In this document: one piece after another, positions 8,331-12,159 of the stretch
How the letters are laid out: each line of letters opens with the position of its first letter
Numbering within the stretch: the first letter of the stretch is position 1
Origin: Acidimicrobiaceae bacterium
GTDB taxonomy: Bacteria; Actinomycetota; Acidimicrobiia; Acidimicrobiales; RAAP-2
Reading direction: 5' to 3'
Assembly: GCA_003138815.1 (NCBI GenBank)
Contig: PLHD01000035.1
Coordinates: 1 to 64,000, forward strand
DNA length: 64,000 nucleotides
Notes under the pieces: generated by a model
What the model saw: the letters and a program-made list of their open reading frames with translations, nothing else
Told to the model about the DNA's origin: nothing
Databases searched by the model: none
Translations under genes and position numbers: made by a program

Positions 8331-9218
8331 GTGACCGCCAGGGCACGAGTCGCCCTCTTCAAGTCCCTGGGCGCGCTGCTCGAGGCGCTGCCGGAGCGCG
8401 TGGACGTGTGGCTGGCCTGTCGCATCGCGAGCGTGGTGGGACGTCGCGCCACCGCGTCGCGCCGGAACCTTAAGGCCAACGTGTCGCGCGCGCTCGGCGC
8501 GCCCGGCGTCTCGGCCGACGAGGCGTTGGTGGAGCGATTCACCGACCGGGCGTTCGTCAGTTACGGCCAGTACTGGGCCGAAAGCGCGAAGCTGCCCGCG
8601 ATCGGGCGCTCCACTATCTATGACCGGTTCCGGATCTGCGAGGGGCTCGAGCATCTGGTCGAGGCGAGGCAGCGGGGCATGGGAACGGTCATTGCCCTTC
8701 CGCACGTCGGCAGCTGGGAGTGGGGCGGATCGTTCATGGCACAGCTGGACCTTCAGATGACGTGCGTGGCCGAGGACCTGGAGCCGCCGGCGCTCTTCGA
8801 GTGGTTCAAGCAGAAGCGCGAGTCGATCGGCATACGGATCGAGCCGCTGAACGCCCACGCCAGCACGGTGCTGCTCCAGACGCTGAAGGAGGGCGGGGTC
8901 GTCGGTCTGCTCTGCGACCGCGACATCCAGCACAACGGGATCGAGGTCGAGTTCTTCGGAGAAGTGGTGACCATACCCGCGGGACCGGCCACGCTGGCGC
9001 TTCGCACGGGGGCCACGCTGGTCGCGGCGGCGTGCTACGCGGGTCCCGGGCGCGACCACTTCGCGGTCATCACGCCGCCGATCGAGGCGCTGCGCAAGGG
9101 TCGGCTGCGCGACGACGTGACCCGGGTCACCCAGTCGGTCGCCCGCGAGCTCGAGGGTCTGATCCGACGGGCCCCCGAGCAGTGGCACGTCCTGCAGCCG
9201 CGGTTCACCGAGCCGTGA
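8331..9218 (+). CDS. phosphatidylinositol mannoside acyltransferase (LpxL/PatA family)
   Basis: ALPHVGSWEWGGSFM (HxxxxE-type motif); position between pgsA and pimA; GTG start within larger ORF 7245..9218. Confidence 0.85.
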   Translation: MTARARVALFKSLGALLEALPERVDVWLACRIASVVGRRATASRRNLKANVSRALGAPGVSADEALVERFTDRAFVSYGQYWAESAKLPAIGRSTIYDRFRICEGLEHLVEARQRGMGTVIALPHVGSWEWGGSFMAQLDLQMTCVAEDLEPPALFEWFKQKRESIGIRIEPLNAHASTVLLQTLKEGGVVGLLCDRDIQHNGIEVEFFGEVVTIPAGPATLALRTGATLVAAACYAGPGRDHFAVITPPIEALRKGRLRDDVTRVTQSVARELEGLIRRAPEQWHVLQPRFTEP

Positions 9219-10324
9219 ACCCGAGTCGAATCGCGCTGGTCTCGCCGTACGCGTTGGGGGTCTTCGGCGGGGTGCAGGAGCAGGTGATGGCCATGAGCCG
9301 CGAGCTCGGGCGGCGCGGTCACGAGGTGCTGATCGTGGCTCCGGACCGCCACGACCGGTCGTCGTGCGATACGGCGGCGACGGTGAAGCGCTTCGGGCGG
9401 CTGGTGTTGTTGCCGGCCAACGGCTCCAAGGCACCGCTCACCCTCTCGCCGCTGGCCAGCCGTCGGGCGCTGCGGTCTATTCGCGAGTTCGCCCCCGACG
9501 TGGTCCACTTCCACGAGCCGTTCGCTCCCTTGGTGGGTTGGGCGGCGCTGCGCGCGCACGCCGCCCCCGCGGTCGGCACGTTCCACCGCAGCGGCGCCGG
9601 TCCGGCGCTGGACCTCACCAGGCCCGTGCTGCGCGTGCTCGCCAAGGGCCTCGACGCCGCGGCGGCGGTGAGCGAGAGCGCGGCAACCACCATCGAGCGG
9701 GCCGCGGGTGTGCACGCCACGGTCCTCTTCAACGGGTTCGAGATGGACCGGTTCGTCGCCACGCCGCGCGAGCGATCGGCAGAGACGGTGCTTCTCACGG
9801 TCGGGCGCCTCGAAGAGCGCAAGGGGACCGCGCACGCCATCAGCGCCGTGCGGGCCCACAACGCCGGCAGCGAGAACCCGTGGCGACTCGTGGTGATAGG
9901 CGACGGCCCCCAGCGTGCCCGACTCGAGGCTCTGGCCGGCCACGACGAGATGGTCGTGTTCGCCGGAGCCGTGGCCGACGCCGACAAGCGGGCCTGGCTG
10001 CGCCGGGCGAACGCGCTGGTGGCTCCCGCCACGCACGGCGAGAGCTTCGGGCTGGTGCTGCTCGAGGCGATGGCGAGCGAGACGGTGGTCGTGGCGAGCG
10101 ACATCAGCGGCTACCGCGAGGCGGTGGGCGGGCACGGAGTCCTCTTCCCGCCCGGCGACGAGGCAGCCCTCGAGGCGGCAATCGCCAAGGCGCTCGCCGG
10201 CGAGACCCCGCAGGCCGTCGCGGCGGCGAAAGACTACGCCCAGGGCTGGTCCATGAGCGCTCTCGTGGACGCGTACGACTCTCTCTACGCCACGGCGCGC
10301 GAGCGATTCGAGGCCGCGCGGTAG
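9215..10324 (+). CDS. pimA: GT4 glycosyltransferase, PimA-like
   Basis: PYALGVFGGVQEQV N-terminus; GESFGLVLLEAMA Ex7E motif; GTG overlaps upstream stop. Confidence 0.85.
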   Translation: MNPSRIALVSPYALGVFGGVQEQVMAMSRELGRRGHEVLIVAPDRHDRSSCDTAATVKRFGRLVLLPANGSKAPLTLSPLASRRALRSIREFAPDVVHFHEPFAPLVGWAALRAHAAPAVGTFHRSGAGPALDLTRPVLRVLAKGLDAAAAVSESAATTIERAAGVHATVLFNGFEMDRFVATPRERSAETVLLTVGRLEERKGTAHAISAVRAHNAGSENPWRLVVIGDGPQRARLEALAGHDEMVVFAGAVADADKRAWLRRANALVAPATHGESFGLVLLEAMASETVVVASDISGYREAVGGHGVLFPPGDEAALEAAIAKALAGETPQAVAAAKDYAQGWSMSALVDAYDSLYATARERFEAAR

Positions 10325-10333
10325 CCTTGGTCC

Positions 10334-11236
10334 GTGGCAACCAAGCAACGATCGCGCCAGCGCAGGTCAAACTCGTCGAGGGACCGGACCCCGCACTACG
10401 TCGCGCCGGTGCTCGACCCCACCTGGCAGAGCCCCTACGCGCCGTCGGGCGCCGAGCGTCACGCCAACGAGAGGGCCGTGCGTCTCTTCGTCGTGCGCAA
10501 GCGCATGCCTCAGACGATCATCGCCGGTGTCGTCGCCCTGGCCCTCGTCGCGGGCGTCTTCATCGTGCCGTGGATGCCGGGCGTCGGCGTCGTGGTCGCC
10601 CTGCTCTACGCGTGGGACCTCCGCCGCAGCCTGGCCGGCTACGAGCGCCGCGGTCTGTCGCTGGGTGCGGTGATGCTCGACCAGTTTGAGGAAGGCGGCA
10701 CGAGCAAGGACCGCCAGCGGCTGATCACCGTTATCGATCGCCTGGCCGCCACCTTCGGCGTCAACGGCGTCAGCGCCTTCATCGTCGACGACCCCGGCTA
10801 CAACGCCGCACTCGTGCCCAACGGCGACGATTTCTCCCTGTTCGTCACGAGCGCGATGATGCGCGACTTCGAACTGATCGAGCTCGAAGGAGTCGTGGCG
10901 CACTGCCTCGCCCGTCAACGCCTGGGCCAGTTGACCAGGGAGAGCGTGGCTTCGGCGACGCCCCTGAGCGACGAGAACCGCCGGCTGCTGGCCGGGGCGG
11001 GCATGGCGTACCGCGCCGACGAGGTCGCCGCCGCAGCCATCCGGTACCCGCTGGGACTGGCGGGCGCGCTGCGCAAGTGCGCGAGCAAGCAAGTGCCGCG
11101 CGACTCGTTCTTCGCCACCTCGAAGTTCAACGACTGGCGCTGGATCTGGTTCGACATCCGGTGCGACCGCGCCGAACGGGACCTGAGCGACCTGGACGAC
11201 GTGGAGATTCGAGCCCTGGCGCTCGAAGAGTGGTAG
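10334..11236 (+). CDS. membrane protein with degenerate M48 peptidase-like domain
   Basis: Two N-terminal TM segments; LEGVVAHCLARQRLGQL and AYRADEVAAAAIRYPLGLAGALRK resemble the M48 core but lack HExxH. Confidence 0.7.
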   Translation: MATKQRSRQRRSNSSRDRTPHYVAPVLDPTWQSPYAPSGAERHANERAVRLFVVRKRMPQTIIAGVVALALVAGVFIVPWMPGVGVVVALLYAWDLRRSLAGYERRGLSLGAVMLDQFEEGGTSKDRQRLITVIDRLAATFGVNGVSAFIVDDPGYNAALVPNGDDFSLFVTSAMMRDFELIELEGVVAHCLARQRLGQLTRESVASATPLSDENRRLLAGAGMAYRADEVAAAAIRYPLGLAGALRKCASKQVPRDSFFATSKFNDWRWIWFDIRCDRAERDLSDLDDVEIRALALEEW

Positions 11237-11262
11237 GGCGTGGGTCCAGTTAGGCTGGACGC

Positions 11263-12159
11263 ATGAGTTCCTCAAGAGACACTTCAACCACTGGTTCGGC
11301 GGTAGTCAAGCGCGGCCTCGCGGACATGCTCCGCGGCGGGGTCATCATGGACGTCGTCAATCCCGAGCAGGCCCGCATCGCCGAGGACGCCGGCGCCGTC
11401 GCGGTGATGGCGCTCGAGCGCGTGCCTTCGGACATCCGACGAGACGGCGGCGTCGCGCGCATGAGCGACCCGCAGATGATCCAGGACATCCAGGCCGCGG
11501 TGACGATTCCCGTTATGGCCAAGGCCCGCATCGGCCACTTCGCCGAGGCGCAGATCCTCCAGGCCCTCGACGTGGACTACATCGATGAGTCCGAGGTCCT
11601 GACGCCCGCCGACGAGGAGAACCACATCGACAAGTGGGGCTTCACCGTGCCGTTCGTCTGCGGCGCGACCAACCTCGGCGAGGCGCTGCGGCGCATCGGC
11701 GAGGGCGCCTGCCTCATCCGCTCCAAGGGTGAAGCCGGCACCGGCAACGTCGTCGAGGCCGTGCGCCACCTCCGCACGATAAACGCCCAGATGCGCCGGC
11801 TCGCGAGTGCCGACACGTCGGAGCTCTTCGCGCTCGCCAAGGACCTTGGGGCGCCGCTCGCGCTCGTCCAGGAGGTCGCCGCGACCGGCCAGCTGCCGGT
11901 CCCGCTGTTCTGTGCCGGGGGCATCTCGACGCCGGCCGACGCCTCGCTGGTCCTGCAGTTGGGCGCCGAGGCGGTGTTCGTCGGATCGGGCATCTTCAAG
12001 AGCGAGGACCCGGTGCGCATGGCTCACGCCATCGTCGAGGCGACCACGCACTTCCGCGACGCCAGCGTCGTGGCCAAGGTGTCGACCGGCCTGGGCGCAG
12101 CGATGCTCGGGGCCGAGACCTCCACGCTCGAGGTCCGTCTCGCCGAGCGCGGTTGGTAG
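11263..12159 (+). CDS. pdxS: pyridoxal 5'-phosphate synthase subunit PdxS
   Basis: [45 protein letters not shown]. Confidence 0.98.

Follow-up and report, generated by a model that had tools for sequence, protein, structure and literature searches.

The locus between pimA and pdxS

The window analysed here is a stretch of 64,000 nucleotides of contig PLHD01000035.1 from an Acidimicrobiaceae bacterium. The gene of interest occupies positions 10,334–11,236 of its forward strand, where a reading frame with a GTG start encodes 300 amino acids; its assignment as an M48/HtpX-like pseudoprotease gene draws on this frame, on its orthologues, and on a structural model whose top PDB matches are M48 proteins (see below). 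On the same strand it is preceded by a pimA-like GT4 glycosyltransferase gene (9,215–10,324; Pfam Glycos_transf_1 and Glyco_transf_4) and followed by pdxS (11,263–12,159; Pfam SOR_SNZ, E 7e-105), which agrees with the placement given in a first-pass annotation made from the letters alone. The full gene order is thrS, a HIT protein, pgsA, a Lip_A-type acyltransferase, pimA, the M48-like gene, pdxS, pdxT, and yebC, with the identities of thrS, HIT, and pgsA read from translation rather than by profile search. This neighbourhood resembles the mycobacterial pgsA-pimA-snzP region. In that cluster the corresponding position beside pimA is taken by Rv2609c, likewise a membrane protein but of Nudix rather than M48 type.

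Public relatives of the window genome are metagenome-assembled genomes titled Acidimicrobiaceae or Acidimicrobiales, with peat and lakes as common sources. Same-genus orthologues keep both the beginning, (M/V)ATKQRSR..., and the end, ...ALEEW, of the protein, and no genus copy has an internal stop. In one sample of same-genus genomes, only G021 yielded no copy of the gene. In G021 and G023, the two genus genomes negative in another sample, and in the family member G320, pimA runs to the contig end, so that these absences are no evidence of true loss.

The first-pass annotation had proposed that the gene has its own leaderless promoter, and conservation supports this. A leaderless-type -10 element, TAGCCT, lies six bases before the GTG (10,322–10,327, forward strand), where it overlaps the pimA stop codon TAG. 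Of 47 genus loci, 43 have the general form TANNNT, mostly TAGCCT, 5–7 bases (usually six) ahead of the start codon, and the other four are accounted for by a contig end or by start codons misplaced by our script (GTA, TTA, CTA); one locus, L022, keeps the element although the fetched stretch has no upstream pimA match. A similar element, TAGGCT (11,251–11,256, forward strand), stands six bases ahead of the ATG of pdxS, whose unit including this element spans 11,251–12,159, and TANNNT precedes pdxS in all 49 genus loci tested. TANNNT is the -10 form of Mycobacterium tuberculosis promoters (PMC3898074). The exact string TAGCCT N6 RTG shows no genome-wide enrichment over a reversed control, and the case for a promoter therefore rests on conservation. 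A sigma-70 scan upstream of the gene was empty, this promoter type being outside what the scan covers. An operon without a promoter of its own, suggested by the nine-base intergenic gap and the empty scan, was dropped given the conserved TANNNT N6 arrangement.

An M48-type protein without its zinc site

Kinship with M48 proteases, which had been claimed by eye, is borne out by several comparisons. The segment LIELEGVVAHCLARQRL aligns with the HtpX core, NCBIfam HtpX models match the window protein (E 1.7e-6 and weaker), and a profile-profile comparison of the genus alignment with intact copies from the same locus in other families gives E 1.6e-17. Pfam Peptidase_M48 does not match the single window sequence and gives no meaningful match for 31 genus members, and a PDB sequence search with the window protein returned nothing useful. 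AlphaFold2 on the genus alignment yields a model with pLDDT 88.8 and pTM 0.83, for which the top Foldseek matches in the PDB are ZMPSTE24, 3c37, BepA, an HtpX domain, and Ste24, all of them M48 proteins. Overall TM-scores are low (about 0.2–0.4 by query), and the match is therefore to the shared protease core rather than to the whole chain. A very divergent copy that has also lost its site (L146, QG..R) is modelled at pLDDT 88.0 and again finds M48 structures. The predicted fold of this membrane protein is thus of the M48 (HtpX) type.

The membrane part is reduced relative to full-length HtpX. The predicted first transmembrane helix spans residues 58–76 (10,505–10,561, forward strand), with a hydropathy peak at 61–79, and is followed by a second long helix at residues 81–108 (10,574–10,657, forward strand), the first half of which is the likely second transmembrane segment. 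The earlier claim that two N-terminal transmembrane helices are kept therefore stands in the AlphaFold2 model, whereas hydropathy alone picks out just one of them, the first. Full-length HtpX has a further TM3-TM4 pair that is absent here, about 23 residues separating the motif regions as against about 70 in full-length copies, so that the protein lacks the four transmembrane helices of the HtpX type. Ahead of the membrane helices, residues 23–35 (10,400–10,438, forward strand) carry the motif VxxVLDPxWxxxY, whose columns V23, V26, L27, D28, P29, W31, and Y35 are invariant in the aligned genus copies; the family's other genera showed no such motif at their N-termini, and it is possibly a docking peptide.

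As first read by eye, the zinc site is gone. HCLAR (10,901–10,915, forward strand) takes the place of HExxH, with His190 kept, the catalytic Glu replaced by Cys191, and the second His by Arg194. AYRAD (11,006–11,020, forward strand), which aligns with RESLAD/RELRAD, takes the place of ExxAD, so that the third zinc ligand is Ala225 and Asp229 is kept. The nearby IRYPLG block (11,039–11,056, forward strand; TRYPPG in relatives) is retained by active and dead copies alike. Alignment of orthologues, which had been suggested as a check, shows the loss to be fixed throughout the genus: the site is absent from all 50 copies examined (47 HC..R, three HL..R), and the third-ligand position holds A, T, S, C, or L, with His190, Arg194, and Asp229 invariant in the genus alignment. 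A local mutation or sequencing error as the cause of HCLAR is ruled out by the agreement of the 50 copies. The first-pass annotation had reasoned that intact orthologues at the same locus would imply a local mutation; the outcome of this check is mixed. Sister genera and other families do have such orthologues, yet the loss is fixed genus-wide and recurs elsewhere, and is therefore no local mutation. The protein thus shares fold and sequence homology with M48 metalloproteases but has neither HExxH nor the third-ligand Glu, and it combines clade-fixed loss of catalytic residues with purifying selection, as pseudoproteases do. It is very probably not a protease and would be expected to be inactive in vitro, although His190 and Cys191 may retain some metal binding.

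The best NCBIfam match of the window protein is the LemA-linked HtpX type (NF003425/PRK04897, M48B), a model on which the full-length locus orthologue L035, which sits after lemA, scores 339 bits against a cut-off of 355. In Streptococcus pneumoniae, htpX and lemA likewise bear consecutive locus tags, SPD_1138 and SPD_1139 (PMC8546594). Compared with this type, the window protein lacks HExxH, the ligand Glu, TM3-4, and a lemA neighbour, and has its own conserved N-terminal motif. The canonical HtpX encoded elsewhere in the genome (G000:C39) shares the M48 fold and the membrane protease family with it, but its HELSH and RELAAD motifs are intact, its TM3-4 region is hydrophobic, and it reads ILIGKP at the TRYPPG position of the locus family.

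Repeated loss across the order

The order in which the site was dismantled can be followed within the family. Genera g26 and g214 have intact HELAH or HEMAH together with RELRAD at the same place, and intermediate states occur in g209 (HL..H), in g203 (HL..R), and in g213, which reads HG..H and has Leu at the position of the ligand Glu. When the four catalytic columns are left out of the alignment, the tree unites g1, g203, g209, and g213 and places g26 and g214 as sister to them, and this grouping together with the motif states indicates that the two Glu residues were lost first and the second His later.

Beyond the family, the gene is a near-constant feature of the locus. Among 178 genomes from the order, we could place pdxS in 170, and an M48-like reading frame was found in 92 of the 100 upstream stretches read; the remaining eight are either cut short (L090, L096, L158, L159) or full-length with no pimA found either (L097, L125, L156, L157). 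The gene lies in the pimA-pdxS interval in about 50 families, and no recovered interval of the order is without it. Upstream on the same strand is pimA in 122 of 132 loci, and downstream is pdxS in nearly all, which supports the orthology of the copies. Two records carrying the locus, L065 and L083, are titled Saccharibacteria and Acidobacteria, titles that look wrong for these contigs.

Among 129 classified copies from outside the genus (the order stretches plus added family and phylum samples), 67 have all four residues, hereafter active, and 62, hereafter dead, do not. All four residues are gone in 25 of the dead copies and three in another 24. Fifty-five family groups were sampled, five of which lie outside the order: 29 contain only active copies, 20 only dead ones, and six a mixture. 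A single dead clade is rejected by the AU test (p-AU 6.6e-98, 47 rows), and the parsimony minimum is 15 changes on a 139-row quick tree. Counting losses only, the best tree requires 18, a figure that falls to 11 when branches below 80 support are collapsed and to three when those below 95 are. That the zinc site was lost repeatedly across the order is thus firm, but how many times is uncertain, given the weak support for deep branches in the M48 tree.

Could the altered residues have been rebuilt into a different metal or catalytic centre, formed by His190, Cys191, Arg194, or Asp229? The invariance of three of these within the genus would fit such a centre, as would the change of the second His to Arg in 32 of the 62 dead copies of other genera. 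Yet Cys191 is Leu in three genus copies, His190 is gone in 36 of the 62 dead copies elsewhere, and a change from His to Arg takes a single base in GC-rich DNA; we regard a rebuilt enzyme as very unlikely. The frequency of that Arg across genera could reflect convergence, or just this one-base change.

The ancestral layout is, from gene-order comparison, pimA-lemA-htpX-(DUF3048)-pdxS. A class-level outgroup outside the order (L226) has pimA-lemA-M48-DUF3048-pdxS with the site intact. Within the sample, lemA lies ahead of 27 of the 29 long active copies, whereas 53 of the 62 dead copies are short and without lemA, an association that is descriptive only, phylogenetically independent pairs being too few. 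The TM3-4 pair appears as two hydropathy peaks in long copies and is missing from short ones. In the window genus, lemA is at the locus in none of 50 copies and anywhere in the genome in four of 37. In other families, a DUF3048 lipoprotein gene (YerB-like, by eye; L035 5,124–6,355 and equivalents) often separates pdxS from the M48 gene; the window genus lacks it. In L233 (G236, a 9.2 Mb genome), the pimA-pdxS interval has no M48 gene but gives a weak LemA-like match at 456–965 (31%, E 1.6e-7), perhaps a case of reverse retention.

A maintained protein and its possible role

The gene remains under purifying selection. Nei-Gojobori dN/dS, a check suggested in the first-pass annotation, is 0.05–0.27 for close genus pairs (distant-subclade pairs with saturated dS being left out), near the pimA values in the same pairs, and 0.12–0.38 in other dead lineages against 0.15–0.33 for active copies. 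These values support the earlier view of a maintained rather than a decaying gene. The ExxxD motif retains its Asp in 178 of the 179 copies, including 61 of the 62 dead copies outside the genus, and the RYP block is nearly invariant. Even 27 very divergent, mostly dead copies share invariant Gly112, Glu156, Ala160, Asp208, Thr215, Pro218, Pro219, and Arg265 (L146 numbering). If the protease had instead become dispensable once lemA and TM3-4 were lost, and the gene were slowly decaying under relaxed selection, one would expect the same four residues to be replaced in many different ways across lineages, as is indeed the case. Such decay is already disfavoured, and we consider it highly unlikely, given the absence of stops within genus copies, the low dN/dS in several dead lineages, the conservation of RYPP, Asp, and promoter, and the presence of the gene in every recovered pimA-pdxS interval of the order, the missing genus copies falling at contig ends.

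Since the site has been lost repeatedly while the rest of the protein is conserved, its useful job is probably not cutting. We lean, somewhat beyond an even chance, towards a maintained M48 pseudoprotease that acts by binding a membrane or membrane-associated protein without cleaving it; a binding role is suggested because the fold is conserved, the core is kept, and the gene persists at the locus. The ancestor would have been a four-helix zinc protease of the LemA-linked HtpX type, encoded after lemA between pimA and pdxS. In the window lineage, lemA and the second helix pair would have been lost first and then the catalytic site, beginning with the catalytic and third-ligand Glu residues and ending with the second His. 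What remains may be a membrane hairpin bearing an intact M48 fold, whose old substrate-binding surface and RYPP loop would bind a partner, perhaps as a holdase, anchor, or adaptor. It is tempting to speculate further, at somewhat less than an even chance, that in the pimA-linked M48 lineage the main ancestral job was at no time proteolysis, or not proteolysis alone, and that active copies also bind through the RYPP/Asp core, so that the site could be lost repeatedly and the gene kept.

The nearest candidate partner would be the peripheral membrane enzyme PimA, with the PIM machinery. PimA is the natural candidate by position, which is suggestive only. In one genome (G042, locus L034, 2,544–5,141), lemA and htpX adjoin pimA and pdxS lies about 0.55 Mb away, so that there the gene follows pimA rather than pdxS. 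The link to PIM or lipid synthesis, raised in the first-pass annotation, is one of position only, and the gene's partner in the ancestral layout is lemA. Adjacency to pimA also fits plain conserved synteny, given that translation and PLP genes share the interval and that the gene carries a promoter of its own.

The main rival to a PimA partnership is pairing with the genome's own active HtpX. By analogy with what is thought for iRhoms and FtsHi, the dead copy might act as a partner or decoy, presenting or withholding HtpX clients. The window genome and almost all of its relatives retain an intact canonical HtpX (HELSH...RELAAD), and regulation of active cousins is a recorded pseudopeptidase role (PMC11266112). 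The conserved position, however, adjoins pimA and not the other htpX, and other M48 genes are almost universal, in genomes with an active locus copy as in those with a dead one, so that the two groups offer no contrast; we consider this reading unlikely.

A binding pseudoprotease would have parallels in other families. FtsHi (M41), ADAM2-type (M12), and alpha-MPP (M16) proteins have lost zinc or base residues and kept a cellular role (PMC11266112), and are likewise cases of a lost site in a kept protein, in families other than M48. The same 2024 review of metallopeptidase pseudoenzymes names neither M48 nor HtpX, and our full-text searches of open-licence papers for a bacterial M48/HtpX pseudoprotease, or for HtpX in Acidimicrobiia, returned nothing relevant, an absence that is no proof.

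Automatic annotation will miss such proteins, which have no Pfam match, or miscall them as zinc proteases. HtpX and LemA are widespread and poorly understood, and here one syntenic gene occurs in active and dead versions, with intermediates, across about 50 families of one order. The locus therefore lets one ask which function of an M48 membrane protease needs no cutting, and whether that function serves envelope lipid synthesis.
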